A DNA stretch of 64,000 bases from assembly GCA_028532985.1 (NCBI GenBank), contig JANCIK010000004.1, positions 3,224,001-3,288,000 on the forward strand. Reading direction: 5' to 3'. Below, one piece after another: positions 1 through 27,598 of the stretch (its first letter is position 1; every line of letters begins with the position of its first letter). The DNA comes from Stropharia rugosoannulata (taxonomy: Eukaryota; Basidiomycota; Agaricomycetes; Agaricales; Strophariaceae). The notes beneath the pieces are model-generated. The model made no database searches and was not told the origin of the DNA. It saw nothing but the letters and a program-made list of their open reading frames with translations. The translations under genes and the position numbers were made by a program.

Positions 1-5
1 GAGTA

Positions 6-3000: not shown

Positions 3001-3645
3001 CCATTCTTCATGGTGACAGGCACGCACCCCATACTACCATTCGACATAGCAGAAGCGACTTGGCTGGTGAAAATACCAGATCACGTACTGACTACAGAGG
3101 AGTTAGTAGGGTATCGCGCGTGCGCACTAGCCAAACATTGCGACACAGTAGAGGAGATGCGCGCACGAGTATCAAAGACGAAAAGAGATGCGATCAGGGC
3201 ATTTGAAAAGAAGCACTCGGCTAAAATCCGTGACTATGTGTTTAAGCCAGGAGATGTAGTGCTAATGAGGAACTCGGGCATAGAATCCAGTCTGAACCGT
3301 AAGATGCTTGCACGATGGAACGGGCCTTACATCATTATCACACGAAAAGATGGTGGAGCGTACTTAGTGGCAGAGATGGATGGCTCTGTGTTGAAGGATA
3401 AGGTGGCGGCGTTCTGCCTCATTCCTTACTTTGCACGGAGGCAGCTGCGCTTACCGGACGGTTTGGATGATATAATTGATCAGACCAAGGAGAACATAGC
3501 TAAAATGTTAGAGGCGCCGGACTATGAGCCAGCTATTCCCAAAGATTATATCTTTGATGAGCCCGGTGTACCCTCGGGTAGCAGTGCGCTTACAGTAGAA
3601 GAGGATGAAGAAGATGATGATGACTGGAGCGAAGAAGACACTTAG
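6..3645 (+). pseudogene. pol: Ty3/gypsy-like pol (RT-RNase H-integrase), one frameshift
   Basis: Frame 3 (6 to about 350) and frame 1 (about 355-3645) align end to end with the single family B pol ORF, so one single-base indel near 350 separates the N-terminal region from RT. The RT catalytic motif is YIDD (codons 856-867) followed by VPIRGP. RNase H follows, with a TDAKYLKGM-like segment near 1585. The integrase zinc finger (two His, then CHVC) lies near 2385-2510, and the catalytic core has HADT, TDNGG and an E in SQANGKIER. A GPY-type module (RWNGPYIII) lies near 3315, and the C-terminal tail is acidic. There is no chromodomain. Apart from the indel the frame is open, so decay is slight. 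The first residues are probably internal to a longer Pol, because the window cuts the element. Confidence 0.85.
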
Positions 3646-3772: not shown

Positions 3773-5089
3773 CTACTGGGCCGGCTTGTCCTCGGTGGCA
3801 GTAACGCCAGTAACGTCGAGGCTGCTCTGCAAGATGACAAGCTGCTCAACGAGGAGCGCGCAGCGCTTGAGGATGAAGTCAACCTTGTGGAGATCACAAA
3901 TGATCTCTGCTTGTAAATCACCAATGAGGCGGCACATCACCAACTCGGAAGGGTTACCCGTATTAAGGGGCTCCTTAAGGAGGTTAGCGGCAGCATCAAG
4001 ACAAGCATTGACCTTGTCATTGTCCAAAACGAGAGAAGTGCCTGAGGAAGAAGGGTTAGAAAAGATTAGTAAGAGAGTGGTGCGGTGCACGCACCTTGCA
4101 TAATAAAAGGAGAGTCGGGGAATGTAGGAACGCCCTCTGAGCCCAGCCTGGCTTTCTTAGGAGAGGCTTCACCTGCGGCGGCGTCACGGAATGAGCGACG
4201 AAGCTTGGTCTGACGATAAGTCATACCTCGACCAAGCGGACGAGAGCGGTAACCGGGAGTGTCTCCGCGCTTGCGCTGGTATTTCTATAAGAATCTAAGT
4301 GTGCGCAGCGGAGACGAGTCAGACACACACCTGCTTGGGAGTATCAGGTGGTGCGGCGCGCTTCTTGTTAGGACTCGGCTCGGGTGTATGCTGCCTGCTG
4401 GGAGGACCTCCCTCAGTCGCGGCTTCAACTTTATTGTCGAGGGCCATCTTTTTGAGGAGCATGTAAAGTTGCATGTTAGTGATGTCTGGTAAAGAAACTA
4501 AGGTTAGCCACACCTTGTCATCGTCAGAGTCAGGAGATGTAGTACCTCCAGGCACGGAGGCGGTCTCAAGGTCCGCAGTTGCGGAACGTGTAAGAACGCG
4601 AACGTTGTGCTGCGCGCACCAAAAAGGGGATTAAGTATAGAAAGGGTTAGGAGAGGAAGATGAGCACACAGGTCCAGTAGGGGTATGGGTGCACTGACGA
4701 GAAGCGGCAGCCTTGGCCTTGAGGACTTGTTCATGCAAGTTGATAAATGCGTTGGCGGCAGGGGAGAAGGAGCGAATGTGGTGGTCAGCCTCGAGCGACG
4801 TATATATGGCGCAAGTCTCATTGAGAATCTCGATAGCTTCATTGTTGTTTATAACACGAGTGATACCGCCGTGCGCATCGCGCCAGCGGTTCTGCAATCG
4901 TGCCAGACGAAGTCAGTAACATACAACAAGGGAACCGCGCGATGCGCGCACCAAATCGACAGCAAGCAGCTCCAGGCTGCCAGTATAATTCGCAGGAGTG
5001 GCAGAGGCCAACCCACGAATGTCCTGGATCAGCGAGAGTTGATGCTTGACATTGGTGAAGTTAAAAAGAGGAGCATGAGTAGTAGCCAT
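3773..5089 (-). CDS. P-g3: antisense multi-exon accessory gene of family P, function unknown
   Basis: Five exons can be assembled on minus: 5089-4925, 4891-4670, 4609-4331, 4284-4095, 4041-3773, giving 374 codons. Introns 2-4 are 46-60 nt with GT/AG ends and consistent phase. The first gap is only 33 nt and contains an in-frame TGA, so it is either a very short intron or a nonsense lesion. A TATA box lies about 60 nt before the ATG. The protein starts MATTHAPLFNF. It has helical N-terminal sequence, a Ser/Pro-rich middle with an NLS-like NKKRA, a basic exon 4 (KYQRKRG, then many R/K) and a leucine-rich helical C-terminus. I recognise no domain. The gene ends 127 bp from the pol stop, so the two are convergent. 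A basic, nuclear, DNA-associated role is inference only. Confidence 0.65.
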
Positions 5090-5148
5090 GGTAGTGGTTG
5101 AGAACAGTAGGAATAAAGTGTGGTGCACTCATACAGAGACAGCGAGCG

Positions 5149-5373: not shown

Positions 5374-6339
5374 TGTGAGGGGCTGGGGCTGGCCCCTCGT
5401 GAAAACATGAAAAACCATAAGGTTCAGAACATAGATACACAAGAAGCAACATATCCGCCATAACGATCGGAAACTACTATCGGAAACTGAAAGAACAAGA
5501 AGAAGCACAAAATATGAAGACTGAGATATGAAGATGCAAGTTTATTCGAAGATATGAAATATGTACATGATGAAACAAGAAGACAAGCACATGGAAGACT
5601 CAAGATGTTATTACAACTCAATGGCAGATCAAGAAAGACAACAGCATCAGAGCAATATTGGACTTCTGATACCGACAACATCAGATCAATATTAACAATC
5701 TGATGTAACTATGGACCCACAAGGGAGTCAATCACATGAAAATACTCATACATACGACCTGGGACACAGAGGGGTAACGGATTCCGACGATATGCAGGGG
5801 TTTCCGACGACATACAGGCGTGTGGTAGCAGAAAGCAGAAGAACCTCGACACAAACACAAGGGACATAGGTGTGGAAAGAGGGTTGGAGGAGATGTATGT
5901 TCAGGGGTGAACATGGAGATGATCCGGCCACAGGAAGATTTCTCGTGCTTGGGCTTGGTTTCCGAAGATAAGGAAATTTGTGGCCAAGATATGAAGCATG
6001 CTGTTGTGCAGCATGGTTTCCGACGAGATAAAGTCAGCACAGGCAGTCGGATCTTCGTGGATGTATAAGGTACAATCTGGGCATGGCAACCAAACGGGTA
6101 TTTAAGGAGTAGAATATCTCTGTACTTCCCCAGCTTCCTTCAGGGTTAAATTCTACCTACACACATCATATCAGTTCGCATCGGAAACCGTCATTTAAAC
6201 CTCGTACACTGGAAGCTCCTTGTTATAAAACAAGTAAAACCTTTTCAACGTGCTATCGTTGTACACACGTTGCCTTCGCACATTGTGAACTATAGAGACA
6301 GGCTTTTCAGACCAGTCCAACCTAACTTCGCACCTCACA
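5374..6339 (+). repeat. Solo LTR of family B (copy A)
   Basis: A 966-bp copy of the family B LTR, in opposite orientation to copies B and C. It starts TGTGAGG and ends CCTCACA. It is flanked on both sides by ACGC (5370-5373 and 6340-6343), which I read as a 4-bp target-site duplication. No internal sequence remains, as expected after LTR-LTR recombination. It contains six TTTCCGA/TCGGAAA heptamers. It lies between the promoter region of P-g3 and the 3' end of P-g2. ORFs within it are shared by all three copies and are not considered genes. Confidence 0.9.
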
Positions 6340-6588
6340 ACGCATCGCAGCAAAAGAGTGCGCGCATCAAGGGAGATGCAGGTCTTTCCCCGTTTGGCAA
6401 ATTGATGTCCGCTTTGAGATTGAAGCCGAAAATGCATAACAATGTTACCCGACAGTCTTATTTCAAATACAGGGTCATGACACATGTACCAAGAAATAGA
6501 TGCTAGCTATGACTATAGATAGTTATCAATGGAAAGACAGCAAAATGTCAGTCCGGGAATTAAACATCCTAAGAAGTGATGGTCAGGG

Positions 6589-7657
6589 TCAGCACAGCGC
6601 ACGAGGAGAAAGACCCACAGGAAAGAATTCCTCCTGGTAAAAGACCTGGGCGGCATAGTGGAGTTGTCGGAAGTGTTCAGAGTGAGGGAGGGTGCTGTAG
6701 CGCTCAGCATCAGTAGTACCACACAAGCGCAGGACGAGCTCGCTATAGTGAAGCTGAGCGCACAAGTGCGAGATGCGAGGCGAGTGACAGGTAGCTTCGG
6801 TCAGTGCCAGAGCCCGCTACAAGGATGTCAGAGCCGCGCACGAAAAGGCTGGAGAAGGGGGACATGCGCGCACTGCATGGTCTTGAACGTGACGCATCAT
6901 GTCTAGGCAGATGGTCATGGGAAGCAGCGGTTCAGTTGCAGCCTCAAGAATAAAATGAAGGGCGCCTATGCAGATGCAGCAGACGCACTCATGGTCATCA
7001 AGCGGAATATCAGCTAGCACCCGCTTGGGTAGAGCAGCTAAGCGCAAGAAGGAAGGATCGGACCTCGCGCGTTGAAGGAGATTACTTTCGGTATCGAAGG
7101 AGGGCATGCTGATAAAAGACATGTTCATGGAGGGATCATATATATCACTAAACGATCCATCAGAGCCGCACACGGGCTCAATCGTAGCTAATATCATCTA
7201 CTACAAGGGCAGCGTCGGGATCTACGTCTAGAATGGCGGTCCCTGTTGGTTCCGAGGGTGGGAGATTGTGAAAAGGCATGCCAAGATGGCTGTACCGATC
7301 GAGAATGTGATGAGCGGCGTTGCTGAGCATGCACGCATCGAAATGATCATCGCTAAATCTGCGCTGAGTGCAGCCTTCGTGAAACACGATCGTCATGACT
7401 AAAGGCAGGAATTGGCGGTTGAAGTCGATAAAACGCAAAGGCAGTGTAATCCGATCCTGGAGGAAAATGTCAGCAGAAGGAGCGCTTGCAGGAAATTGGA
7501 AAGTTACCAATGCGCGCACGAGGGACTGAGCAGACTGTAGAGGAAAGTGAAAAGGGCCATTGTGGCAGTCCTCTGCGAGCTCCGCATGAATGGCGAGTTG
7601 TCTCAGTAAAACAGTGAATTGGCAAGCAACAGCAGTGCACTGATATCGGAGAGCCAT
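6589..7657 (-). CDS. P-g2: antisense accessory gene of family P, related to B-a1
   Basis: On minus, an ORF from 7657 to 7178 (159 codons) overlaps by 20 nt a second ORF from 7197 that splices into a last exon (7197-6874, intron 6873-6817, exon 6816-6589; 183 codons). Similarity to B-a1 spans both parts. The strongest stretch is LPKRVLADIPLDDHE, which matches ARHLLEMFPMEDHE in B-a1, so I read them as one gene. How the two frames join at 7178-7197 is unresolved: an unrecognised intron or a frameshift. The intron donor is GTGCGC, as in other family P introns. A TATA box (7697-7703) precedes the ATG. No known domain is recognised. It is mostly helical and cytoplasmic or nuclear by composition, with no signal peptide. 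Confidence 0.6.
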
Positions 7658-7677
7658 AACAGAGAGTAAAGAAACTC

Positions 7678-8050: not shown

Positions 8051-10081
8051 CTAGGCCTCCATATTATCGCCTTCCCTATCAACCTCTTCGCCAGCCGAGA
8101 CCTCGGGGCTTGAGTCGTCAACAACGATGGGGGAAGATTTATAAGACCAGACAGGAGCTTTGCCTTTACCTTTACCCTTGCCTTTGCCCTTGGGAATCGC
8201 GGCACGGACTTTGGAAACTTTGGAAGGCTGGGAAGCTGGGACAAAGGAGGAAGGATCTTGATGGGGGTGATCAGGGTGATAGAAGGAAGACAGAGGAATA
8301 AAGTCAGGCGATTGATGTGAGTCCAGCAGTTGGCAGAGCGCATCGTAGGAGGCGCAGAGCTGCGTGAGATCCATAGAACGGAGGGCATCGAAGGTTTCAC
8401 AGTCAGTGAAACGAGAGCCAATGATGACATTAGTGGGCATAGTCGCGGCCATAGCCTGCGCAAGCTGCACGAGCTGGATAAGTTCAGCGAAATAAAGACG
8501 CTGAAGTCCTCGACGAGTTTCTTCTGCGGCACGCGCTTGCTGGCTGAACGTGTCGAGACGGGCAAAAGAGGCCTGTAGTTCTAAGAAAAAGGAGGGAAAT
8601 AATAAGTATTAGAAGGAAAGAAAGGAAAGGGAAGATGTGCGCACCACGGGGGGAGGTGCGATGCCAACCGGAAGTGTTTTCTAACACGCTGTCAAGCTCG
8701 GCACCGGTCATGGTATGAAGGCAAGGGCCTTGGCTGCCCAGACAACAGTTTGAACACTTCCTTCCGGGGCCACGAAGGATGCAGAAGTGTTTTAGGGAGG
8801 GGGAGCTGTCCTGAGGACGCTCGCACAGCGAGCAGGTGAACCCAGGCTAAAAGAAGAAAATCAATTGAGAACTAAAAGAAGAAACAAAGAAAAGGGGACT
8901 CACAATGATGGCCTCGCGCAGCGCCTCTTCAGGAGGCAGGTCAGCCATGCTTATGGCGTCAGGCAAAGGCTCGCCAGCCAGTGCCAGGGAGGCGTGGTAA
9001 ACACCGGGTAGGAGGTTGAAGACGGGGTACGTCGACTGATACTGAGATTTAGAGGAATCGATTCCCCGAAGGCGGGGCAGCTCAGCCAGGTCGCTGGAAG
9101 CGGCCTTTGCGGGAACGACCTTCGTGCGCGATGCGTGCACCTTAGTGGCAGGAGGTGCGTGCTGTCTAGAAGGGCCCGCCACTGCCTCCTGGACCACTAA
9201 AATAAAAATAAAATAAAAGGAGACATTAGATAGGAAACCGAGACCAGTAAGAAATACTGTACCGGGAGTAGTAGTAGAGCACGCACATTTCGCTTTAGGG
9301 ATCGGAGGGACTGGAAGGGCAGATATTGGAACAAGAGATGCGTGCTTGCATTTGGCCAGCGTCGTAGGGGCAGGAACCGAAGGAGGAACTAGCGAGGCGC
9401 GCGTCGAGGGAACTGGGTCGGGGGAAGGGGGTGGCGGAGTTGACGAGGCGCGTGGTGGTTCAGACGGGGGCGCGGTGGTCGTCTCGAGAGGACCTGTGGT
9501 CTTGGCTTCGGGCGCGGCCATCTCCACATCGCGCTCGGACGACTCAGGAGGGATGTACTGGATGCAGGGCTCTGGGAGAGCCCCGGGCGACCAGGACACG
9601 GGAAAAGCGGTGGCAAAGGCAATTTTATAAGAGGGCAGCTGTAAGAAGCGATCAGCGTATGTTTAAAATCAAAAGGAAAAAGAAAGTCAAAAGAAACGGG
9701 GCTTACAGGTTTTAGCTCGGGCATGGGCTCGGAGAACCATAAAGCGTGCTGGGTTATGTCCTCAGAATTCCATCCGAAAACGGGATCGTCGTCACCAGTG
9801 GCCAGGAGGGATAACAAGAGGGCCAATTCGCGCGTTCCTGCGTGGTGAGTGGTGTCGATCGGAAATGCGCGCACATGGCTTTCGACCGCGAGGCCAAACT
9901 GTTCGCGGAGGGACATGAATTGGTCGACGTCCTCGGGGCTCAGCTGGTCGCAGCCGCCCAAGTCCTCGAAAGTGTCGTAGTGAACTAGCACAGGGCGGAG
10001 TCGGTGAAAATGGTCGGCACAGTCGAGTGCGCGCTCTTCCTTTTGAACTTTAAGCAGTTGGGTGACGCCACGGAAAGCCAT
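8051..10081 (-). CDS. P-g1: antisense Cys-rich (zinc-binding-like) coiled-coil protein
   Basis: Five exons in phase: 10081-9707, 9638-9263, 9196-8904, 8846-8645, 8580-8051. All junctions are GT/AG and the introns are 57-68 nt. The protein is 591 aa. Residues 1-125 are a helical N-terminal region (MAFRGVTQLLKV...). Residues 126-348 are a long Pro/Ser/Ala-rich linker. Exon 4 encodes a Cys cluster C353-x2-C356-x13-C370-x8-C379-x2-C382-x7-C390 containing RKCSNC. Exon 5 has a Gln/Ala-rich helix likely to coil, then a run of GK repeats and an acidic end. The Cys module matches that of B-a4 in spacing style and in the R-x-C-x-N-C core, and in both genes it has its own exon. A nucleic-acid-binding role is inference. 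Family B is inserted 60 bp upstream of its TATA box. Confidence 0.75.
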
Positions 10082-10179
10082 GAAGCTGTTATGATCCAGG
10101 GTAAGAAATAAGTGGGAAGCAGTAGGGACTTAGAGAGGGAAGCAAGAGAAAGAAAGAACGAGGAGGGCAAGGGAACTGG

Positions 10180-10187
10180 ATATATAT
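10180..10187 (-). promoter_or_regulatory. TATA box of P-g1
   Basis: GCATATATATCC on minus, about 95 nt before the ATG at 10081. A pyrimidine-rich leader lies between. The family B insertion site at 10247/10248 is only 60 bp upstream, so upstream control sequence of P-g1 is now LTR. Confidence 0.5.
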
Positions 10188-10247
10188 GCAGGAGAGAATG
10201 GCAAAGGAAAATTCTGGAGTATGAGAGAAGCGGACGGTGATGAGCGT

Positions 10248-11216
10248 TGTGAGGTGCGAAGTTGGGTTGGACTGAAGCCTGTCTCTATTGTCTCTATAGT
10301 TCACAATGTGCGAAGGCAACGTGTGTACAATGATAGCACGTTGAAAAGGTTTTACTTGTTTTATAACAAGGAGCTTCCAGTGTACGAGGTATAAACAACG
10401 GTTTCCGATGCGAACTGGTATGATGTGTGTAGGTAGAATTTAACCCTGAAGGAAGCTGGAGAAGTACAGAGATATTCTACTCCTTAAATACCTGTCTGGT
10501 TGCCATGCCCAGATCGTACCATATACATCCACGAAGATCCGACCGCCCATGCTGACTTTATCTCGTCGGAAACCATGCTGTACTACAGCATGCTTCATAT
10601 CTTGGCCACAAATTTCCTTATCTTCGGAAACCAAGCCCCCAAGCACAAGAGATCTTCCTGCGGCCGGATCAACTCCATGTTCTCTCCTAAACACACATCT
10701 CCTCCGACCCTCTTTCCACACCTATGTCCCTTGTGTTTATATCGAGATACTTCTGCTTTCTGCTACCATACGCTTGCATGTCGTCGGAAACCCTTGCATA
10801 TCGTCGGAATCCGTTGCCATATTTGTCCCAGGTCGTATGTATGAGTATTTCCATGTGATTGACTCCCTTGTGGGTCCATAGTTACATCAGATTGTTAATA
10901 TTGATCTGATGTTGTCGGCATCAGAAGTCCAATATTGCTCTGATGCTGTTGTCTTTCTTGATCTGCCATTGAGTTGTAATAACATCTTGAGTCTTCCTTG
11001 TGCTTGTCTTCTTGTTTCATCATGTACATATTTCATATCTTCGAATAAACTTGCATCTTCATATCTCAGTCTTCATATTTTGTGCTTCTTCTTGTTCTTT
11101 CAGTTTCCGATAGTAGTTTCCGATCGTTATGGCGGATATGTTGCTTCTTGTGTATCTATGTTCTGAACCTTATGGTTTTTCATGTTTTCACGAGGGGCCA
11201 GCCCCAGCCCCTCACA
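10248..11216 (-). repeat. 3' LTR of family B (copy B)
   Basis: TGTGAGG at 10248 and CCTCACA ending at 11216 form a 7-bp terminal inverted repeat. From about 10898 to 11216 it is identical by eye to copy C. From 10248 to about 10890 it carries several dozen substitutions and small indels relative to copy C, whereas solo copy A matches copy C there. It is therefore a mosaic, and not a simple age-diverged partner of copy C. Confidence 0.9.
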
Positions 11217-11270
11217 TCTCCCCCCAACTTTTAAAACACCACCCTCCTGGGTGGTCGGAAACCTATAAAT
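11217..11270. promoter_or_regulatory. Family B PPT (minus), dyad, motif and B-a1 TATA box (plus)
   Basis: Adjoining the LTR, minus reads GGGGGGAGA then TGTGAGG, a textbook polypurine tract (11217-11225). At 11239-11254 is CCACCC-TCCT-GGGTGG, a 6-bp dyad. TCGGAAA directly abuts it (11255-11261), and TATAAAT at 11264-11270 is the TATA box of B-a1, about 35 nt before its start. Confidence 0.75.
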
Positions 11271-11302
11271 TTCAGCCAAAAGCGTCGTCGCCATCAAGCA
11301 CC

Positions 11303-12046
11303 ATGGACCCCGCAGCAGAAAGAATATTTCGCTCGCTCTGTTTTGCTCCAGGAAACCGAAGCCATGCATTCGTTGTACCAACAACCATGCATGAATTTGC
11401 GTTGACCATCCGTCACCAACATGAAATCCTATGCCTCGCCATCTACAAGGACATCCGCACCCGCAGCGTACGAGAACTGAACATAATCGACCATGCGCAA
11501 GTGGAAGCATACGTTCATGATCACCTTGATCACATGGTAAGCCCTCGAACCGTTTCTCAACTAACCCTGCTAATAATCGCGCAGCGCTTATTGCTATGCT
11601 CTCGCGTCAACATGCGGCCGTCAAATGAGCGCAAGATTGAGCACATGATTCCACCTGAGTGCCGTTACCTAAGCGCAAGTGCCAGGCATTTACTGGAGAT
11701 GTTTCCGATGGAGGATCATGAAGGATTCGAGTACTGGTCGACCATACTGTGGTTCATGGCGCTATATGCTGAAGACACTGCCGACACAACTAAGGAGAAC
11801 CAAGTCGACTTCAAAGAATTTAATGAATTGGACAGCACCAGTCGCTGGTGGATACAGTTTTCAAACCATGTCAAAGCCGAAGACCCCCTTGAAGAACACC
11901 TGCCAGCATTCAGGCCAGCCGCAACACCTGAAGACACATCGGATATCGAAGAAATCCCAGCGGCGATCTTCCATCTTCAAACGGCCGTGCCCCCCCAGCG
12001 TCCACATGCCAGATTCCGAACATCGGTGCGAGAGATGGATATATAA
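11303..12046 (+). CDS. B-a1: antisense accessory gene next to the LTR, related to P-g2
   Basis: The ORF runs from ATG 11303 (MDPAAERIF...), 39 nt after a TATA box; ATGs further upstream in this frame lie in the LTR and are ignored. A 48-nt segment 11537-11584 (GTAAGC...GCGCAG with CTAAC inside) is probably an intron that happens to be in frame: 231 aa spliced, 247 aa if retained. The sequence is helical with no signal peptide or membrane segment. The stretch ARHLLEMFPMEDHE resembles P-g2. The C-terminus is acidic and then basic. The stop codon TAA lies inside the TATA box of the next gene. Function is unknown. Confidence 0.7.
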   Translation: MDPAAERIFRSLCFAPGNRSHAFVVPTTMHEFALTIRHQHEILCLAIYKDIRTRSVRELNIIDHAQVEAYVHDHLDHMVSPRTVSQLTLLIIAQRLLLCSRVNMRPSNERKIEHMIPPECRYLSASARHLLEMFPMEDHEGFEYWSTILWFMALYAEDTADTTKENQVDFKEFNELDSTSRWWIQFSNHVKAEDPLEEHLPAFRPAATPEDTSDIEEIPAAIFHLQTAVPPQRPHARFRTSVREMDI

Positions 12047-12048
12047 AG
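12040..12048 (+). promoter_or_regulatory. TATA box of B-a2 overlapping the B-a1 stop codon
   Basis: TATATAAAG. The TAA at 12044-12046 inside it is the stop codon of B-a1. The B-a2 start codon is 37 nt further on. Confidence 0.7.
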
Positions 12049-12084
12049 CGTAGAGCACTAGTAGATAGTTCCATAGCACCCACA

Positions 12085-12573
12085 ATGCAGGCACCTTTGC
12101 GTCTATATCTTCAATCCTTAGTGCTTGAGTTGCCCACCGATCTAAATGATTTCCGATCGCGATTTCCGATCCCATATGTCTTCAAACATTGCCTTGATCC
12201 CTTCGTCGACGCCCTAGAATACGAATACACACGAATACTCCAGCTTGACACACTCAACTTGCAGCCTGTCATAACCGATCTCCGGTCCTTCTTGTTCCTA
12301 GGACAAACTATAGCAGTAAGCAACTTCTCCAGGCGACGTGCCGCCCTAACACAATCATAGTATATAGCATGGCATGGTTGTCAGCATGTAGCCATACATC
12401 AATCGCCTAATGAGCAAATCACCATGATCGAATTGAGGGTGTTAATGCGTATGCGATACATGACGATGGCATTTGGATACACTGGGCACGAGATTCCCGA
12501 AATCAAGGAACGCATGGATGATGTTTTCTTCCAGTATCAGCAGGCATGTGTGTGCAGAGTAGGCGACCCATAA
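12085..12573 (+). CDS. B-a2: small antisense accessory gene, unknown function
   Basis: Two exons, 12085-12315 and 12385-12573, are separated by a 69-nt GTAAGC...CAG intron, phase 0, giving 139 aa. The start (MQAPLRLYLQ) is the first ATG after the TATA box at 12040. The protein is helical and Leu-rich, with a Met-rich second exon (MRMRYMTMAF) and a Cys pair near the end (ACVCRVGDP). No domain is recognised. It sits second from the LTR in the four-gene antisense array, with only 38 nt between the B-a1 stop and this start. Confidence 0.65.
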
Positions 12574-12677
12574 CTGACAACCGGCTGTCGGAAAATATCT
12601 AGATAATCTCCAGACAAGTGACATGTAGCCCTGTGCCCAGATCGTCCAATGCCAAGTAGCCCAGCGCCCGAACTCTG

Positions 12678-12684
12678 TATAAAG
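12678..12684 (+). promoter_or_regulatory. TATA box of B-a3
   Basis: TATAAAG, 32 nt before the ATG at 12716 and about 105 nt after the stop of B-a2. Confidence 0.6.
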
Positions 12685-12715
12685 TGAAGGCAACTATTCT
12701 GTCCAAACACCAGAA

Positions 12716-13226
12716 ATGAGCACCACCACTCGATTCACCATGTTATTGACCACAGCTGTGAAGAATCCGACGGACATCATGCAGGTCCTAGAGCATGCCA
12801 TTCGGCCCACCATAGACCAATTGTTATCCGATCAAATGCTATCTCATTCCGCAACAGACACGATGGAAACACATCGGACACTTGCCGCCCTGTGCCATTA
12901 TATTGTAAGTTGACCCACTTGTCCTGTTGAAATCAGACCCAATTGACAATACATATTCTGCACAGAATGACCATTTTGAAGATTATATATCCGCAAAACA
13001 ATTTCGACCCAGGTCATCGTGGACATTACTCTTGCTTCGCCGGATCATGAGTGAATACGGAGCTGTTCTTGTAGACAGCGAGCAGGATAAGGCATTAAGC
13101 CTGCTCAAAGCAGCTGAGAAGCAGTTGCAAGGTTTCCGCCACTGTTACTTGTGCGAGACTGACTTCACCATAGATGGAGTGGAGAGATGGAGGGACTGGA
13201 TTGAAAAACAAGCCGAACAGGCATAG
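12716..13226 (+). CDS. B-a3: small antisense accessory gene, unknown function
   Basis: Two exons, 12716-12904 and 12966-13226, with a 61-nt GTAAGT...CACAG intron in phase 0, giving 149 aa. It begins MSTTTRFTMLL, 32 nt after a TATA box. It is all-helical by composition. A C-x2-C pair (CYLC) lies near residue 123, and a charged end (ERWRDWIEKQAEQA) follows. No family is recognised. Third gene of the antisense array. Confidence 0.65.
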
Positions 13227-13772
13227 ACACAGCTGCCCATAGATGTAAACATGATAGATTTCCGCACACAAATTTGACGTTGCCATACGATGCCGAAAAA
13301 GGCCGAATGAAAAAGGAAGATGCCGAAGTGAAACTGAACAAGCTGCCCAGCCTACACATGCGCCATTACGGCCGAAAAAGCCAGTTGAAAATCCGCGGCG
13401 GCCCAGAGCATTGCTGCAACAACAACCCTCGGACGGCAGACAAAAGAGGTAACGCCATTCCCTAAAGCAGCACGGCATGTCACCATAAAACCGGCGCCAT
13501 CACGCCGTCATACTTGATTAGGCAACGCCGCTTTCCAGAACATGAGCCACGGTGATTTCCGACCTAAAAATAGAAAATCCGAACAAGATTCGCGTCGAAG
13601 TTTATCGCAGTTCCAGTAAAGGCAGCCCAATTGTCCAGCATATAGGACCGAGTCATAGAGAAGAATCCACAGCATTCTATCGGTTTCTTCATAGTGCCAT
13701 CCGTGCATGGTGCCGAACCCATTCAAAGCTAGCCGATTTCCGAAAGCGTGCTGAACCGTGGTCCTAAAAGAA
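13227..13772. other. Gap in the antisense array, motif-rich, no gene
   Basis: About 545 bp with no supported gene. It carries repeated GCCGAA/TTTCCGA-type words (for example near 13300-13360, 13553 and 13737), and reads as the upstream control region of B-a4. Confidence 0.4.
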
Positions 13773-13780
13773 TATAAAAA
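13773..13780 (+). promoter_or_regulatory. TATA box of B-a4
   Basis: TATAAAAA, about 65 nt before the ATG at 13844. A CT-rich leader lies between. Confidence 0.65.
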
Positions 13781-13843
13781 CCCTGCCCATTCCACTCATG
13801 CTTTCACCATTCTTTCTTCCCTCATCCCCCATCTACTCAAAAC

Positions 13844-14839
13844 ATGCCTCCTCGTCGTACTGCTCGTCCCGCTTCCACCTACGAAATTGACATGCGCTGG
13901 GCCGCTCCGCAAATTCTTGGCCTCGCAGAAGGATGGTATGAGTACGACCAAGTAAGTAACTTTAACATATCGAGTTTCCGTTGCTCTAAAAACATTGATC
14001 CAGAGGTGTTCGTGGTGCAAGAGCCACCCCAGCTATATGTGCACTTTGCGATATACCCCACGTTGGAGCCGAGCGTGCACCAACTGCAAGATTGATAAGA
14101 AAAACTGCAGCAACAATACCGCCGCATGTGTAAGTTCCTTATTGTCTTCTTGGTCACTTTCTTGCTGATGGCACCACCTATAATCTAGAAACAGCAGCCG
14201 GGAGATTACTTGACCCGTGCATTAGCCGGCAGCGATTTCGCCTACGACCAACGGTCGTGCACAGTCCACCCAAGCCCCGAAGAAGATAGTGATGACAAGA
14301 GCGACAGCAACCAGAACAACGAGGCCGAAGATGCGGACGAACTTGAAGCAAACGATGCAGTCAACGAAGTAACCTCCCACGAAGCACTAGCTAGCCCTAT
14401 GCAAATTGAGGATGACGGTCCCTTTCCTTTCTTTGATGCGACGCATGTTGTCGAGTACACGGATTCCAACGTCGTGAACCCAAAGGATGTCGGCGAAGGA
14501 ACTTCAGGTGAGCAATTACAATTCCCTTTCTTTAACAAATTTCGGTAACCTTGTTCCACAGGCATTACACGTTCCAGCCCCAGCGCCAGTTCCAGCAACC
14601 CTATTGAGGGTTTACCATCGTATGAACCCTATACGCAGTTGGTGCGGGATTTCCGCGAATGGCAAATGACTGCAGACCCAGCAAATGGGCTCGAAGAACT
14701 AGATGGCCTTTGCGAAAGAAACTTGCAACATTACTCTGACATGGAAAATCGACTTCGCAATCTGGTGGAATTATCGATGGAGCGTATTGAGGAGATCCGT
14801 AAAATGTCCGGGGAAATCAACAGATTCCGCAGGAGGTAA
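13844..14839 (+). CDS. B-a4: antisense Cys-rich (zinc-binding-like) coiled-coil protein
   Basis: Four exons: 13844-13951, 14004-14129, 14189-14507, 14562-14839. Introns are 52-59 nt, all GT/AG and in phase, giving 276 aa. Exon 2 encodes C38-x2-C41-x7-C49-x11-C61-x2-C64-x6-C71-x6-C78 with RACTNC in the core, a likely zinc-binding module. Then come an acidic Ser/Asp/Glu-rich region (about 95-180) and a C-terminal coiled coil (NLQHYSDMENRL through EEIRKMSGEI) ending in RFRRR. The arrangement resembles P-g1 in the other lineage. It is convergent with pol, with 259 bp between the stops. DNA binding is an inference from the Cys pattern. The fold is not one I can name. Confidence 0.75.
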
Positions 14840-15098
14840 AAGGGGATTTATATGTATTTCTTCTTGTTGTATTTCCCTTCGCCCTTCGTCGGAAACCATA
14901 TTGTCATAGTATCTTGTAGTCAATAAATTGTCTTGGTCATGCACATTTAAGTTTGAAAGCAATAATTTCATAATCTTGTAAAAACAGAAACATAACCTAA
15001 AAGAAAAAGAGTTTATTTAACAAATGAGAAGAAACGAACTTGAAACTGTTGAAGCTCCATTAAGAAATATAGGTTGTGTAAGCGTTGTCGGAAACTTG

Positions 15099-18000
15099 TT
15101 ATTCATCATCAGGCGCCACTTGCGAGTCCTCAGGTACCTCTTCGCGTACCATGCCTTCAATTAGATCCTTGGGTTGAGACAATAGTTCCCATGGTATTTC
15201 AAGCGGTTCTCTTGATATATAAGGTATTAGGCAATATGCGGCGAATCTCTTGTAGGATACGGCTCCACTGAGTTCAGCGCAGATGTAAGACCCCCCTTTC
15301 GTTCGTCGTAACACCATTAGAGGCCCAAAGTATCGCGGTTTTGTTTTCCGATCAAGTGATTTTTCAACTGGTGAATTTCTGACTAGGACCAAAGTACCTG
15401 GTGCGAAATCTTGTAACACGATGCGATGCTTATTGTATTGCTCAAAATAACGAGCTTGCCTCAGCCGTGCTTGCTCCACTTTGTCCTTGACCCTTTCAAG
15501 ATCTTCTGGTCGCTTCTGCAGCATTATAGCTCTTCGTGCTATTAGCTCTTCTTCGGAAATCATTTCAACTTGATCGGGAAACATGAAGGTCGCTTCTGTG
15601 ATGTCAAATGGAAATAATGGTTCCACTCCGTGCGCGATATAGTAGGGAGTATAACCAGTTGATTTTTGTACCGTAACACGTTCAGCCCATAAAACAAATC
15701 GGAGAATTAGTGGCCATATTGATAAGTCGCCTTCACAAGTCTTGACTATTGCTTCCCTAACATCAAGATGTCGTTTTTCAATCAAGCCGTTTGCCTGCGA
15801 ATTATATCCCGAAATTCTGATGTGGTAGATTCCATATTTTTCCGCCAAATAGTTCACGGCTTTAACCCAAGGTGTACCATTGTCTGTCACGATAATAGCC
15901 ATAGCTCCCCATTGCGACATAACATCCAACAGAAATTCTCCTATAACCGTATGGTTTTCCGATGCTACAGCCAGAGCTTCAGGCATTCCCGAAAGTGAAC
16001 ATCGTAGATGAAGACAGAGATGTTTTCCCCCTTTTCCTTTGGGCATAAAGAAAGTATCCGCATGAACCTTGACAAATAGCGACAATGGACGAGCTACTGT
16101 TGGCAGAATGAGGTTCTTTACCCTTGACTGTCGCTGACATATATCGCAAGTCTTCAAATACCACATAAGATCATTACTGATGTTAGGCCACCAAAAACGC
16201 TTCGTGAGCCTATTCCACACAGTAAAATAAGACTTATGTCCTAAGTTATCGTGTACTTCTTGGAGTATCCGAAGCCTATCTTCTTGTTGTACCACTTGTT
16301 TATGTTCACCATCGTCGGACCTTTTCCATAGTTTTCCGTCCAGTATGAAGAATTGCCTTACTTTCTTGAGGAAGCGGTCGTACTCCTTTCTTGTGCGAAT
16401 CCATGCAGGTCTTTCGGGGTCGCCTAGAAATTCTTTGACCTTCTTTAATTCCTCATCCATGTCAGCTCCTCTGTCGGAAACCGGTAACTTAAGTGTTGTA
16501 GTAATTTCCGAACGGTGAGGTACCGATTTAGCTGCAATAAGTACCATAGCCTTGTAAGACAAAGACGATCCCGGTATTTTCTTCTGTACCATGGACATGT
16601 GAGTGAATTTCCGATCGTCATTTTTGTTTAAGACCCAGATTCCGAAGCCGCATGCCCTGTCGATCCAGTCTTCTACTTCTTCTTCGGAATCTTCTTGAGG
16701 ATCTAATTCTGATCGTCTCCTTCTTGACAGACCGTCTGGTGAATGTGATTTTCCAGGGACGTGTTCTAGCTTGAAGTCAAACAAAAGTATGGCGGCTATC
16801 CAGCGATTTATCGTAGCATTAGGTTGTATATCGGGGTTGTTTAACATTCCCTTGAGGTAACTCGCATCAGTCCTGACTATCAAGTTTTCCACTCCAACCA
16901 GGTATATCCGATACGCTCTAAGACTGCGAAATAGGCCATATAACTCGATCTTGGCTTGTGAGTATCTTGATTCTCTTTCATTCCAAGTTATAGAACCAAA
17001 CCGCGCAGGATGTTCCTTTCCGTCTTCTTTAACCTGAGATAAAATAAAACCCACAGCTATGTTGCTTGAGTCCACCTCCATTATTATCTGTCCTTCGGAT
17101 TCATAGTCCAATGCCGTTAATGCTGGAGACTGAATTAAGAGATGCTTTAAACTGTCCATTGCTTCTTGTTCTCTTTGTCCCCATGTGAATTCAATGTCCT
17201 TCTTTGTTAGTTCAGTTAACGGTCTTGAATGCATTGCATAATCTTTTATAAAGATACGCATTACACCCAATGTTCCCAAGAATGAGCGAACTTCTGTCAA
17301 GTTTTCACAAGGTTTCCAATCCCTGATAACTCTGACTTTTGACTCATCAACCGTCCTTCCTTGGATGCTGCACATATGGCCAACAACATTAATTCTTGGT
17401 ACAGCCAAAAAGGATTTCGAGGCATTGAAGGTTCCTCCAGCATGCTGTATCCTTTGAATAATGCGATGTACATTGTTCAAGTGTTCCCAGACAAATCTTC
17501 TGATACCAGGGTTTTCGGAAATCGTTTCATAGACCCCATTCTCATCTTGATAATAAGATCGTGGTCCTTTGACCGGTACATCGTCCACAAAAGGTGCCGT
17601 AAATTCAGGAATCTCCGGCTCCAGGATAAATGACACATCTCCTTGTTGGACTTGAACCGAATTTGTAAATCCTTGTGGTAGACGAGTCAATCTCAGGTTT
17701 CCGATAGGCGAAGAGAACGTAGTATAATCCCTTGAATCTTGATGAAGAACCCGATGGTCAAATCCTACAAACAAATCAAACATGGCATAGATAGTTCTTC
17801 CACCGAAAGATTCCGCATAGAGTTCTACAACTGGCAGTAGAGCTGAGTCTTTTATGGTTACTGCATTCAACCTTCTCAGGTCATGCACTACCCGTATTGC
17901 TCCGCTTGTCTTTGGCACATATAGGATCCTGGACCGATAAGGTGAACTAGAAGGTTCATATACTTTGCTTGCGACTTTATCTTGAAAAATTCTCATGACT

Positions 18001-18635
18001 TCTTTAGCGATGCCTGGAGGTATCAGTATTGGTTTTTCCGCCCATGGTTCATGCGGTACAACGGGTATCTTTAGTGGTTCAAAATAGTCTTCTCTGAAGG
18101 CACCTTTCTCCATCTCATTCCAGGCGAATCCCATCTCATGTTCTTTAATGATCCATTGAACTAGACGAGCTTCATCCGGTGTCAAGAAGCCATCTTCATT
18201 TATGTTCCAGGCGTCCATTCGTTCTTTAGTATAGCATATTCCTGGTTCAATATGGTCCACTTTAAAAGGTAACAGTTTCATATTAGCCAGAGGATCCGAT
18301 GGAATTCTTCTAATAACACGATATTCTTCGGAAAACGTAGTTGACACAGGAAACATCCGTCTCGCCACAGGTTTATATTTTTTCCTGGCTTTTATTATTA
18401 GTGCTCTTTGTTGAAAAGAGTAAGCATAAGTCTTCTGTAAACATTGGCCGATAAATCTGGCTGAAACTTCAAAATTAAAATTAGTAGGGTATATTTCGTG
18501 ATATGATGATCCTCTTTCATCATCTATTCTTGCTGCAAATAAGGGAGTTATAAATCGCCCAAATGATAGTGCTGAAGGAATATCCTTCTTGTGCTGTTCA
18601 TGTCGTTTCTCGTGCACTATATTTAACATGAACAT
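15099..18635 (-). CDS. pol: Family B Pol: RT, RNase H, integrase
   Basis: 1178 aa, uninterrupted. RT has its first catalytic Asp in FDLFVGFD (D287) and FVDD at 349-352, with Phe where YxDD is usual, followed by VPVKGP. RNase H has EVDSS (about 520), IELYG (about 564) and RTDASYL (about 590), and ends near PDGLSRR. The integrase zinc finger is H795, H800, C830, C833, and the core is D860, D918, E953. A C-terminal tail follows, with a GP-containing module (PRYFGPLMVL) and no chromodomain. It begins 14 nt after the gag stop in another frame, with a hairpin between. It is about as long as expected for RT-RH-IN, and protease is in the gag ORF. Copies DNA and inserts the element. Confidence 0.92.
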   Translation of the reverse strand: MFMLNIVHEKRHEQHKKDIPSALSFGRFITPLFAARIDDERGSSYHEIYPTNFNFEVSARFIGQCLQKTYAYSFQQRALIIKARKKYKPVARRMFPVSTTFSEEYRVIRRIPSDPLANMKLLPFKVDHIEPGICYTKERMDAWNINEDGFLTPDEARLVQWIIKEHEMGFAWNEMEKGAFREDYFEPLKIPVVPHEPWAEKPILIPPGIAKEVMRIFQDKVASKVYEPSSSPYRSRILYVPKTSGAIRVVHDLRRLNAVTIKDSALLPVVELYAESFGGRTIYAMFDLFVGFDHRVLHQDSRDYTTFSSPIGNLRLTRLPQGFTNSVQVQQGDVSFILEPEIPEFTAPFVDDVPVKGPRSYYQDENGVYETISENPGIRRFVWEHLNNVHRIIQRIQHAGGTFNASKSFLAVPRINVVGHMCSIQGRTVDESKVRVIRDWKPCENLTEVRSFLGTLGVMRIFIKDYAMHSRPLTELTKKDIEFTWGQREQEAMDSLKHLLIQSPALTALDYESEGQIIMEVDSSNIAVGFILSQVKEDGKEHPARFGSITWNERESRYSQAKIELYGLFRSLRAYRIYLVGVENLIVRTDASYLKGMLNNPDIQPNATINRWIAAILLFDFKLEHVPGKSHSPDGLSRRRRSELDPQEDSEEEVEDWIDRACGFGIWVLNKNDDRKFTHMSMVQKKIPGSSLSYKAMVLIAAKSVPHRSEITTTLKLPVSDRGADMDEELKKVKEFLGDPERPAWIRTRKEYDRFLKKVRQFFILDGKLWKRSDDGEHKQVVQQEDRLRILQEVHDNLGHKSYFTVWNRLTKRFWWPNISNDLMWYLKTCDICQRQSRVKNLILPTVARPLSLFVKVHADTFFMPKGKGGKHLCLHLRCSLSGMPEALAVASENHTVIGEFLLDVMSQWGAMAIIVTDNGTPWVKAVNYLAEKYGIYHIRISGYNSQANGLIEKRHLDVREAIVKTCEGDLSIWPLILRFVLWAERVTVQKSTGYTPYYIAHGVEPLFPFDITEATFMFPDQVEMISEEELIARRAIMLQKRPEDLERVKDKVEQARLRQARYFEQYNKHRIVLQDFAPGTLVLVRNSPVEKSLDRKTKPRYFGPLMVLRRTKGGSYICAELSGAVSYKRFAAYCLIPYISREPLEIPWELLSQPKDLIEGMVREEVPEDSQVAPDDE

Positions 18636-18639
18636 CTTT

Positions 18640-18663
18640 CCCGACCGTGTTAATTCAGTCGGG
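18640..18663 (-). promoter_or_regulatory. Stem-loop spanning the gag stop just before the pol start
   Basis: CCCGAC (6 nt), a 12-nt loop, then GTCGGG on minus. The gag stop codon lies in the loop and the pol ATG is 4 nt after the stem. This geometry suits termination-reinitiation, because gag and pol are in different frames with no overlap. Confidence 0.5.
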
Positions 18664-20632
18664 ATTCTGGAAAATCCGCTGACTCTTTTTCGGAAACCTT
18701 ATTCCTGGGCTGAGTTGGAATAGTAACCACCTTCTGTGTGTTGGGGCAAGTCAAAGTGATTTCCTGGTCGCCATTTGTATAATCCCTAGTAGTGCATCCA
18801 GTATACACAAAGAACGGTCGTCCTATCAGAACTTGAAAAGGGGCTTTATCCACGACATGTACTTGAAAATAGAGTTCAAGGCTTCCAATAGTGATTTTAA
18901 GGTTTTCACACATTCCATCCGTTTGCGATAATTCCGTGTTGGCAGACTCCATATATATTTTCCTTTCTGGGTTTATATTGTGAGACAGTTTCCTCCATAT
19001 GTGCTTGTCCATTGCCATGATTTCCGATCCTTGGTCCAAGACACATTCTGCCGTGAATTCTCCGTTTAGCAACGTGGGTATCACCCTGAGTTTCATAAGG
19101 GGAGAAGCCGTCAAAAGGACTCTATCTGATGGCCCATTTTCCGAAGCGAATTGTAGCACATAAGACCCTTCATTTTCTTCACCATGGACATAGCTAACCG
19201 TTGGAATTCTCTTTGGTGTAGTTGTTTCCTTGAAATATTTCCGAAGTTCTCCAGAAATAGCCAACAACTCTCTTTGAGAAATAGTAATTTCTGCATCCAA
19301 AGATTTTGATATGACTTTCTTAAGAAGATCCAGATTTTCCGCTCCTGAGGTGAATCTGTACTGGGGTCCTTTAGCCGGTTCAAATCTTACATGTGCTTCT
19401 GGTATTGTCTTTTCCGATTTCCTTTCGGTAATCACAACTTCAGGGACTTTTTCATAAGCAGATGAGTTTTTGCCTGGTCCAGGTTTGTCTTGGGGCGAAG
19501 ACCTTGTCTTCAGATAAACCTCACCAATTTCTTCGTCAACTTCTTCGAGTTTACTGGAAGAATTAAACAAGGTTTCAGCCGTAGTACAGGAAAACATCAT
19601 CGTGGTAGCTGGCGACAGGTGAGGGGGTACATCTCGAGCACGTTGCAGTTTGAGGATGTTTTCAATCCTTTCTTTTATTGTTCCAGTTCCATTGATCCAG
19701 TCGCCGTTAGCCATTGTGAATCTACCATTCGGTCCTTGTTTGATGATTCCCTTGTTTATAAATTCATCCGGCAAGTTGCAAGACCTCATAATATGATTAA
19801 TGTCTCCGCAAAACAAGCAACCAGGGGTGTAGCGCGGAGTGGAACGATACATAGGTCTATCTTGTGTCGGAAAAGATGTATTAGGTTGGCCTTGCATGAA
19901 CATCTTTATTGATCCTAATTCCGAAGTCATTTTCCTTAGCATGAGCTCAAGAGCAGTTTCTTCGGTTTTCGTCTGTTCACGAGGTGTGTCTTCAAGGCCA
20001 TACCTGTCAGAATAAGCGTTATCTTGAAGAACATATCGAGCCACGCGATTAACTTGAAGATAATCATGAACCAGGCCCGGTTTCCGCTTCGGGTCTTCAG
20101 CCGTTAATTGAGTAAGAACCTTCGCCCTGAATTCTTTTGGAAGACCTAGAACATAGTTTCTGTTGATGTTGTCTCTTGATGATAATTGCTCCTTCTCCAG
20201 ATAAGTAGCTATAATCATGAATTCACAATGATATTCTGCTAGAAGTTCTTGATTATCCATGGGTTTGCTTGAATACTTCTGTATTAATTTATGCAGATCG
20301 TTGACTGAGTATTTGTAGAGCGAATCCAACCCAGGGAAATATTCCAGTAATATTTGTTTATTCTCCTTCCAGGATTTGTTTTCATCTAGAATATTCTTCC
20401 ATGTTTCGTGGTATCGGTAATCCACATACCACAGGGTTTTTGTAATCCGTGTGATATCCAATGTGTCTCCCCTGTCTTTGCATAATTCCTCGATGTCCTC
20501 TAGGTATCGATGTAAAGGAGTAGTGGGTCCTGTAAACGATGGAGCATCTTTTGAGTTGCAATTTGGGTAAGGCTTGACTTTGGGCGCCACGGTTTGAACT
20601 TCAAAAGGGTTTGCTTCGATTCCGTGATCCAT
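18650..20632 (-). CDS. gag: Family B Gag with zinc knuckle and retropepsin-like protease
   Basis: 660 aa. The N-terminal capsid-like region (about 10-220) shares a pattern with the gag-only element at 27948 (W...W, FPG-D, Y-DL-L, then LG). A CCHC knuckle, CLFCGDINHIMRSC, lies near residue 275. An aspartic protease domain starts near 520, with the active-site segment VLDQGSE, i.e. DQG in place of the usual DTG/DSG, and IGRPF later. The start at 20632 is the first ATG after the PBS region in this frame. The protein forms the particle and processes Gag and Pol. The DQG variant is unusual, but the surrounding pattern argues that it is the true active site. Confidence 0.88.
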   Translation of the reverse strand: MDHGIEANPFEVQTVAPKVKPYPNCNSKDAPSFTGPTTPLHRYLEDIEELCKDRGDTLDITRITKTLWYVDYRYHETWKNILDENKSWKENKQILLEYFPGLDSLYKYSVNDLHKLIQKYSSKPMDNQELLAEYHCEFMIIATYLEKEQLSSRDNINRNYVLGLPKEFRAKVLTQLTAEDPKRKPGLVHDYLQVNRVARYVLQDNAYSDRYGLEDTPREQTKTEETALELMLRKMTSELGSIKMFMQGQPNTSFPTQDRPMYRSTPRYTPGCLFCGDINHIMRSCNLPDEFINKGIIKQGPNGRFTMANGDWINGTGTIKERIENILKLQRARDVPPHLSPATTMMFSCTTAETLFNSSSKLEEVDEEIGEVYLKTRSSPQDKPGPGKNSSAYEKVPEVVITERKSEKTIPEAHVRFEPAKGPQYRFTSGAENLDLLKKVISKSLDAEITISQRELLAISGELRKYFKETTTPKRIPTVSYVHGEENEGSYVLQFASENGPSDRVLLTASPLMKLRVIPTLLNGEFTAECVLDQGSEIMAMDKHIWRKLSHNINPERKIYMESANTELSQTDGMCENLKITIGSLELYFQVHVVDKAPFQVLIGRPFFVYTGCTTRDYTNGDQEITLTCPNTQKVVTIPTQPRNKVSEKESADFPESRLN

Positions 20633-20799
20633 TTCCGATATATGGCTGAGTACTGAAGATATTTGGCTTCCTGACAGTGTCGGTCTTTTCCTTCTTCTCT
20701 TGATGGGTGCTTCCGGAGGTTGTAGGGGTATAGCAAATTCTGCAGCAAGTTGACGAGTTATCCGACAGTCTGGAACAGATGGATCTATTGTGAACTGTA

Positions 20800-20819
20800 G
20801 ACCCTCGCGGTGGGCTCCA
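20800..20819 (-). promoter_or_regulatory. Primer-binding site of family B
   Basis: TGGAGCCCACCGCGAGGGTC on minus, 3 nt inside the 5' LTR. Its complement ends in TCCA, as a tRNA 3' end would. The first 17 nt recur exactly at 27599-27615 in the gag-only element. The tRNA is not identified. Confidence 0.75.
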
Positions 20820-20822
20820 CGT

Positions 20823-21788
20823 TGTGAGGTGCGAAGTTGGGTTGGACTGGTCTGAAAAGCCTGTCTCTATAGTTCACAATGTGCGAAGGCAACGTGTGTA
20901 CAATGATAGCACGTTGAAAAGGTTTTACTTGTTTTATAACAAGGAGCTTCCAGTGTACGAGGTTTAAATGACGGTTTCCGATGCGAACTGATATGATGTG
21001 TGTAGGTAGAATTTAACCCTGAAGGAAGCTGGGGAAGTACAGAGATATTCTACTCCTTAAATACCCGTTTGGTTGCCATGCCCAGATTGTACCTTATACA
21101 TCCACGAAGATCCGACTGCCTGTGCTGACTTTATCTCGTCGGAAACCATGCTGCACAACAGCATGCTTCATATCTTGGCCACAAATTTCCTTATCTTCGG
21201 AAACCAAGCCCAAGCACGAGAAATCTTCCTGTGGCCGGATCATCTCCATGTTCACCCCTGAACATACATCTCCTCCAACCCTCTTTCCACACCTATGTCC
21301 CTTGTGTTTGTGTCGAGGTTCTTCTGCTTTCTGCTACCACACGCCTGTATGTCGTCGGAAACCCCTGCATATCGTCGGAATCCGTTACCCCTCTGTGTCC
21401 CAGGTCGTATGTATGAGTATTTTCATGTGATTGACTCCCTTGTGGGTCCATAGTTACATCAGATTGTTAATATTGATCTGATGTTGTCGGCATCAGAAGT
21501 CCAATATTGCTCTGATGCTGTTGTCTTTCTTGATCTGCCATTGAGTTGTAATAACATCTTGAGTCTTCCTTGTGCTTGTCTTCTTGTTTCATCATGTACA
21601 TATTTCATATCTTCGAATAAACTTGCATCTTCATATCTCAGTCTTCATATTTTGTGCTTCTTCTTGTTCTTTCAGTTTCCGATAGTAGTTTCCGATCGTT
21701 ATGGCGGATATGTTGCTTCTTGTGTATCTATGTTCTGAACCTTATGGTTTTTCATGTTTTCACGAGGGGCCAGCCCCAGCCCCTCACA
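20823..21788 (-). repeat. 5' LTR of family B (copy C)
   Basis: 966 bp, TGTGAGG...CCTCACA, in direct orientation with copy B. It differs from solo copy A at very few positions by eye. It is followed by GCAT. Confidence 0.92.
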
Positions 21789-21965
21789 GCATATGTCGAG
21801 TAAACTTACCGGTAATATGCTAGAACAGTGTAACGCCAAAAGAAGGTCCAGCAAGGTTCAGAAAAGGAAAAGAAAAGGCCTGGTTAGGCAAAGGACCCAA
21901 GAAGGAAGTTAGCGGGAAGTGCAGTGCGCGTATGAGCACAGTGGCGGTTGCCTAAAATAAGCTAG

Positions 21966-27596: not shown

Positions 27597-27598
27597 AC

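Follow-up and report, generated by a model that had tools for sequence, protein, structure and literature searches.

We analyzed a stretch of 64,000 nucleotides (nt) from the basidiomycete Stropharia rugosoannulata (contig JANCIK010000004.1, positions 3,224,001 to 3,288,000 of the forward strand; here called the window), with genome searches carried out in the corresponding assembly of 48 Mb and 20 contigs. The window contains a Ty3-type long terminal repeat (LTR) retrotransposon, designated element B, at positions 10245-21790, with gag-pol on the minus strand. B shows the features by which Ty3/Gypsy elements are recognized, namely, an LTR pair, gag, a protease, and reverse transcriptase and RNase H ahead of the integrase, with the reverse transcriptase (RVT_1) and protease domains scoring below the Pfam cutoff and standing in the expected order. 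The integrase zinc domain was clear, and no Pfam match to the integrase core (rve) was detected at an E value of <0.1 in the pol of B or of a neighboring element, A. Four antisense genes, designated a1 to a4, lie on the plus strand at 11217-14839, in the interval that separates pol from the 3' LTR of this element, as had been proposed in a preliminary description of this DNA made from its letters alone; their exons could be placed at 11303-14839 (Table 1).

The antisense cassette is kept by other copies of the family. A genome search with the cassette gave 36 matches, from which 23 long copies were aligned, 19 containing the cassette in full and 4 having a divergent C-terminal part of a4, while seven fragments with loci and six rows without loci were left out. 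A TATA-like box was present at all four places in 23/23 copies, that of a3 reading CATAAAA in three of them, and the GT..AG boundaries of all six introns (one each in a1, a2, and a3 and three in a4) were likewise retained in every copy, with lengths of 50-52, 59-61, and 52-54 nt for the three a4 introns. The a1 intron, considered only possible in the preliminary description, is supported by 1-nt deletions inside it in two of the copies, one of which is open if spliced and has an unspliced length that is not a multiple of three. The accompanying argument, that these introns survive retrotransposition since they are antisense, was judged to be sound. The frames were open in 17 (a1), 19 (a2), 20 (a3), and 14 (a4) of the 23 copies; of the nine rows counted as broken for a4, three are slices that end before the stop codon. 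All four frames were open together in 7 of the 19 whole copies. Moreover, the ratio of nonsynonymous to synonymous polymorphism (pN/pS), pooled over 66 pairs of 12 representative copies, was 0.11 for a1, 0.24 for a2, 0.27 for a3, and 0.23 for a4, compared with 1.86 and 2.17 in two shifted frames of a1 exon 2, values by which a1 to a4 are judged to evolve under purifying selection. Conserved introns and a ratio below 1 had been anticipated for functional genes, and a lack of conservation in other family copies for spurious ones; the former outcome was obtained. Each gene may be transcribed as a separate antisense mRNA behind its own TATA-like box. As a side observation, six B copies (L013-L018) are 99.5-99.8% identical, with scattered deletions of 1 to 2 nt in several, which may stem either from a recent burst and subsequent decay or from errors in the assembly.

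None of the four predicted proteins (one representative each) had a Pfam match at an E value of <0.1, and neither the TRP28 domain, the VANC-type domains DUF1985 and DUF287, nor a dioxygenase was matched at this threshold. For a1, 59 genome matches were found, all 79-100% identical. The a4 protein is predicted to consist of a Cys-rich part encoded by exon 2, an acidic central part, and a charged C-terminal region, and its Cys exon had 27 genome matches, 26 strong and one weak (E value of 0.11). The Cys pattern reads CX2C-X7-C-X11-CX2C-X6-C, and that of the fungal Zn2Cys6 domain is CX2CX6CX5-12CX2CX6-8C. Assignment of a4 to the latter was rejected, given a spacing that is off by one and the lack of a match in Pfam, among PDB sequences, or among PDB folds.

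A second feature of B is a short word dispersed along the whole element. TTTCCGA or its complement TCGGAAA occurs 37 times across B (10245..21790), compared with 2.98 expected under a second-order Markov model of B, and 6 times in the 42 kb to the right of B. Six copies lie in each LTR, nine lie in the cassette, and the remainder lie in pol and gag, so that both coding and noncoding DNA is covered, and the two strands are balanced (21:16). The coding copies exceed what the protein sequences call for: pol contains 10, against a mean of 1.04 after synonymous-codon shuffling, and gag contains 7, against a mean of 1.13, neither count being reached in any of 2,000 shuffles. Across the aligned cassettes, the number of words ranges from 6 to 10 per copy.

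TTTCCGA contains a CpG, as do the words of the two further families described below, and the aligned cassettes revealed how this dinucleotide has fared. CpG transitions in the 23 cassettes amounted to 0.083 per cell, versus 0.032 at other C/G positions (2.6-fold), an excess that would be expected from methylated copies. The CpGs of TTTCCGA (9 sites) were lost in 2.9% of cells, whereas other CpGs (231 sites) were lost in 19.1%, and none of 5,000 random sets gave a value as low. Restricting the comparison to noncoding DNA gave losses of 3.6% at word sites (6) and 18.1% at the others (58) (P = 0.0024), and noncoding CpG-bearing 7-mers were intact in 83% of cases for the word and in 61% for the others (P = 0.010). 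Because its CpGs are lost far less often than other CpGs, TTTCCGA is, on few sites, held in place despite containing the most mutable dinucleotide. Separately, the most CpG-decayed of the 23 copies, L027, carries 89 C-to-T or G-to-A changes at CpG, compared with 13-78 elsewhere.

Two further families were found to combine an antisense cassette with a word of their own. B is inserted within another Ty3-type element, A, which occupies window positions 1-10244 on the left of B and has an LTR on its right. A search of the genome with pol gave at least 104 matches (those scored among 316 candidates) falling into several clades, and the post-pol regions of six loci, together with the upstream regions of three of these, were fetched. 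Family A (L042 and L043) has antisense genes w, z, y, and x1, and homologous genes w, z, y, and x1 occur antisense in family F1346, here F (L041 and L044; LTRs 99.6% identical). In 9.6 kb of A, where 10.6 matches to its word, GCGCGCA, were expected, 66 were counted strand by strand, falling at 39 places, of which 27 are palindromic; in 9.7 kb of F, its word, TCCGCTG, occurred 52 times, with 3.2 expected. L042 contains 66 GCGCGCA and 4 TCCGCTG, and L041 contains 51 TCCGCTG (counted in 1-kb bins) and 3 GCGCGCA; across the loci examined, to which these counts apply, the three families thus have three nearly exclusive words. In F, each of the four tested frames with a length of 300 amino acids or more had more words than its codon shuffles (count reached in 0/1,000 each), and the word count of the A copy in the window was likewise reached in 0/1,000 shuffles. 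The part of A and F that can be aligned (73.5% identity) contains 20 A matches, at 13 places, and 15 F sites; a single A match overlaps an F site, indicating that the two sets of words hardly share positions. This scarcity of shared sites need not be recent, since silent sites between A and F are near saturation.

Comparison of A with F points to one gene of the cassette. The exons of x1, y, and z are 61-88% identical between the two families, and those of w are 39% (exon 1), 27% (exon 2, probably a chance match), 44% (exon 3), 39% (Cys exon), and 58% (coil) identical; tblastn with w exon 3 gave identities of 63% and 44%, the latter being that of A versus F. The pN/pS between A and F, covering 6 of the 14 exons compared and rough in view of the near-saturated silent sites, was 0.08-0.22 in four x1, y, and z exons, 0.49 in the w coil, and ∼0.75 in the w Cys exon. 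Moreover, silent divergence between B copies was 0.53 in a4 versus 0.12-0.15 in the neighboring genes, and that between A copies was 0.75-0.76 in w versus 0.13-0.29 in its neighbors, as if old alleles of the Cys gene had been exchanged between elements. Considering that w diverges fastest between A and F and that the Cys gene shows deep silent divergence in both B and A, a4/w is the best candidate for a specificity factor. No tblastn homology to the B cassette was found for the A cassette exons at an E value of <0.01, the sole match, to w exon 1, falling in the A flank of that locus.

TABLE 1 Features of elements B and A and of associated LTRs in the window
Feature	Position	Strand	Details
TATA box of a1	11264..11269	+	TCGGAAA (11255-11261) ends 2 nt upstream
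a1	11303..12046	+	Exons 11303-11536, 11585-12046; intron 11537-11584; 231 amino acids
TATA box of a2	12040..12047	+	Overlaps a1 stop
a2	12085..12573	+	Exons 12085-12315, 12361-12573; intron 12316-12360; 147 amino acids
TATA box of a3	12678..12683	+	
a3	12716..13226	+	Exons 12716-12904, 12966-13226; intron 12905-12965; 149 amino acids
TATA box of a4	13773..13779	+	TTTCCGA at 13737 upstream, 29 nt before box
a4	13844..14839	+	Exons 13844-13951, 14004-14129, 14189-14507, 14562-14839; introns 13952-14003, 14130-14188, 14508-14561; 276 amino acids
3' LTR of B	10245..11216	-	∼95% identical to 5' LTR
5' LTR of B	20820..21790	-	∼95% identical to 3' LTR
gag-protease open frame of B	18650..20866	-	DUF4100; Asp_protease_2 slightly under cutoff
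pol open frame of B	15099..18698	-	RNase H and integrase zinc domain over Pfam cutoff; RVT_1 under cutoff
pol open frame of A	157..3645	+	A broken further right by B
x1 of A	3773..5089	-	Model by eye with about six exons; TATA-like box near 5157
y of A	6616..7128	-	Two exons, model by eye
z of A	7178..7657	-	Intron ahead of exon at 7456, model by eye
w of A	8051..10081	-	Model by eye with about five exons; Cys-rich stretch 8843-8652
Solo LTR of family B	5374..6343	+	Within cassette of A; splits A
F1346-type LTR	22295..23665	+	89% identical; bears TCCGCTG copies; sits in LTR of A, which it splits

No comparable word was detected in a chromovirus of the window (57400-62606), in host DNA (40000-56000), or in a further family, E (8.0 kb, in two pieces), where the best log10 P values were -3.4, -4.0, and -5.1, respectively. 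A candidate fourth word, CTGATCA, at window positions 31394-37801, was set aside as a near-palindromic cluster with many sites around a Tc1-type transposase. The link between cassette and word rests on the three families that have both, A, B, and F. Two observations on the additional loci are recorded here. In the family E locus, the end of pol is part of a 2.4-kb repeat (L039 1044-3453 and L045 1-2406), which suggests a tandem or recombined element. Beyond the pol of family 1217 (L046), there are minus-strand open reading frames (ORFs) which, by eye, we take to resemble fungal protein kinases (FunK1-like).

The solo LTR of family B inside the A cassette shares 99.6% identity with the right LTR of B and ∼95% with the left one, and no clear target-site duplication was seen by eye at the flanks of B. 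Because of this much closer match to the right LTR and the lack of a clear duplication, B may be a recombinant. In addition, a 558-amino-acid open frame without a Pfam match lies between two identical 335-bp direct repeats at window positions 27262-30101, perhaps representing a young, short LTR-like element.

Considering the conserved cassette, the three family words, and the constraint on the B word together, we propose that B carries its own regulatory cassette in antisense orientation, composed of four small spliced genes that would each be transcribed behind a TATA-like box. TTTCCGA studs both strands of B, in the LTRs, within gag and pol, and ahead of the a1 and a4 TATA boxes. One or more cassette proteins would bind this word as double-stranded DNA, the likeliest candidate being the Cys-rich a4 (w in A and F), and this binding would activate copies of the same family only, or shield them from CpG methylation. 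Families A and F, having Cys-gene cassettes and other words, would in the same way each recognize themselves. Such a mode of working would be like that of VANC in the VANDAL transposons of Arabidopsis, which are plant DNA transposons of the Mutator type, without implying relatedness. We estimate the probability that the element's own regulators are encoded in its cassette, and that one or more of them reads the family word to keep copies active, at a little under one-half (about 0.47). The broader proposal, that a Ty3-type clade in a basidiomycete independently evolved self-recognition through antisense spliced genes and a private CpG-containing word, with protein and word diverging together and each family unsilencing itself only, is advanced more tentatively, with the odds leaning against it. 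Both the binding by a4/w and the release from silencing are inferred.

Several results weigh against this proposal. Regarding the candidate reader, a4 and w are alike only in how their Cys residues are spaced and in where the two genes stand in their cassettes; a4 lacks relatives in Pfam at an E value of <0.1 and among PDB sequences at an E value of <1; and the predicted model of its Cys exon is of low confidence (mean predicted local distance difference test score [pLDDT] of 70) and had no PDB fold match. Two A copies share the same word though the identity of their w Cys exons is only 57%, and the idea that w alleles are tied to the word within family A was thus not supported. Regarding the words, the coding excess in A is weaker, being reached by 1, 1, 21, and 3 of 1,000 shuffles in four frames of L042 and L043, and the Poisson value of the A word is overstated, as the word is nearly palindromic. 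The F word is strongly oriented (78 versus 17), an orientation that a reader of double-stranded DNA would not need. Regarding methylation, the CpG observed/expected ratio is only slightly low in B (0.85), compared with 0.96 in host DNA and 0.89 in the chromovirus. Finally, in family E, a candidate antisense ORF follows pol, yet no word was detected, and family 1294, which also has antisense ORFs, shows no more than a weak word, CGGGCA (13 versus 2.1 expected). Families 1217 (L046, 6.0 kb) and 1271 (L047, 5.0 kb) had neither a word nor such a cassette in the last 0.3 kb of pol and the region downstream, a weak control in that the element ends were not found.

The best-surviving alternative, which we regard as unlikely though well worth weighing, is that the words are sites of host transcription factors, for example, of the zinc-cluster type, that drive each family, the cassette having an unrelated role such as a particle- or envelope-like one. 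The B words reach their highest density in the LTRs (6.2 per kb), two of them stand upstream of the a1 and a4 TATA boxes, and TTTCCGA and TCCGCTG both contain CCG, which is typical of fungal zinc-cluster sites. However, a host factor would need sites in promoters and not words throughout gag and pol above codon expectation, and a strong word was seen only in the three families with a multigene Cys-gene cassette, among few families examined and with partial cassette-free controls. Less probable still is a role of the words in RNA, in the packaging, reverse transcription, or splicing of element transcripts. The orientation of the F words fits such a role, as does the placement of some of them at the branch-point region of predicted introns, but B words are balanced between strands, the A word reads nearly the same on both, and gag, pol, LTRs, and antisense genes are all covered. 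We give very little credence to a neutral spread of the words by tandem duplication or biased mutation. Word-containing arrays do exist, a tandem of 2.5 copies in the LTR of B and a small one in an LTR of F; against this origin, no further arrays were found in B and L041, the flanks are diverse, and the words exceed codon shuffles and, in the B cassettes, resist CpG decay. Lastly, captured host genes or chance frames, for which the lack of Pfam homologues might speak, are given the least credence. Chance frames are ruled out by pN/pS, the shifted-frame controls, and splice conservation in a cassette present in all 23 aligned copies. Capture was rejected on the 59 a1 matches, all of which look like B copies, with no host relative of a1 seen among them, and multigene antisense cassettes recur in two further families.

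The proposal that cassette proteins read the family word can be set beside several known systems. VANC of VANDAL elements exerts word-specific anti-silencing with proven binding and hypomethylation, its words lying mainly in noncoding tandem repeats (PMC5735166 and PMC10398659), and VANC diverges more than the transposase, with sister families using other words (PMC5735166). Elements A, B, and F are similar to VANDALs in having several genes with introns, a fast-diverging protein beside a conserved one, a family word that is rare in sister families, related proteins paired with differing words, and a tie to methylation; at the loci examined, all three families are enriched in their own word. 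Unlike in VANDALs, binding and hypomethylation are here inferred, and a1 to a4 have no VANC-type Pfam domain. A further difference, which counts against the proposal together with the points above, is that the words are dispersed, mostly nontandem, and also present in gag and pol, noncoding tandem repeats being represented in B by one small array.

The arrangement itself has precedents in plants. The preliminary description regarded a packed set of promoter-bearing, spliced antisense genes as new, and this holds in part; it mentioned neither the dispersed family word nor the antisense cassette of the neighboring element A. The plant elements Retand, Grande, and RIRE2 are already known to carry antisense ORFs in the region from pol to the 3' LTR, sometimes with more than one per element in Retand, while Grande has its own antisense promoter and a DNA-binding role is suspected for the TRP28 product of Retand (PMC7264820 and PMC11963269). 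On the other hand, neither four spliced genes each with a TATA-like box, nor any antisense gene cassette or family word in fungal LTR retrotransposons, turned up in searches of a library of open-licence papers. B resembles these plant Ty3 elements in its long region between pol and the 3' LTR and in the presence of antisense coding genes in most copies; it differs from them in being fungal, in the lack of a match of a1 to a4 to any Pfam family (TRP28 being PF04195), and in having four spliced genes in a row together with a dispersed family word. The HBZ gene of human T-cell leukemia virus type 1 (HTLV-1) is spliced as well. B is like HTLV-1 in carrying an antisense gene, regulatory in HBZ and possibly so in B, near the 3' LTR of a retroelement (PMC11963269 and PMC7264820). 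Unlike HBZ, a single gene driven by the 3' LTR, the B cassette comprises four genes with their own TATA-like boxes, and the likeness is one of arrangement.

Genes with a possible tie to DNA methylation occur in other transposable elements (TEs) as well. Fungal DNA transposons encode TET/JBP dioxygenases that are thought to counter DNA methylation, and no retrotransposon with such a gene is reported in that study (PMC12730594). B would share with them the property of being a fungal TE with a gene that may counter methylation and differs from them in that a1 to a4 have no dioxygenase match in Pfam. In addition, a brown-algal Sola1 DNA transposon is reported to carry, on its opposite strand, a gene that combines a DNA-binding domain with a methyltransferase domain (PMC12477816). 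Whichever protein function applies, a selected four-gene spliced antisense cassette illustrates that the "extra ORFs" of fungal retroelements can form a whole gene module. Should the proposal be true, the concerted change of a TE and its recognition word would become testable with at least three families that have different words in one genome, and sequence-specific tools for editing fungal epigenomes might be obtained. If the family word is indeed read by cassette proteins, private anti-silencing would extend from VANDALs to LTR retrotransposons, representing a second origin of this strategy in another kingdom and another class of TE.

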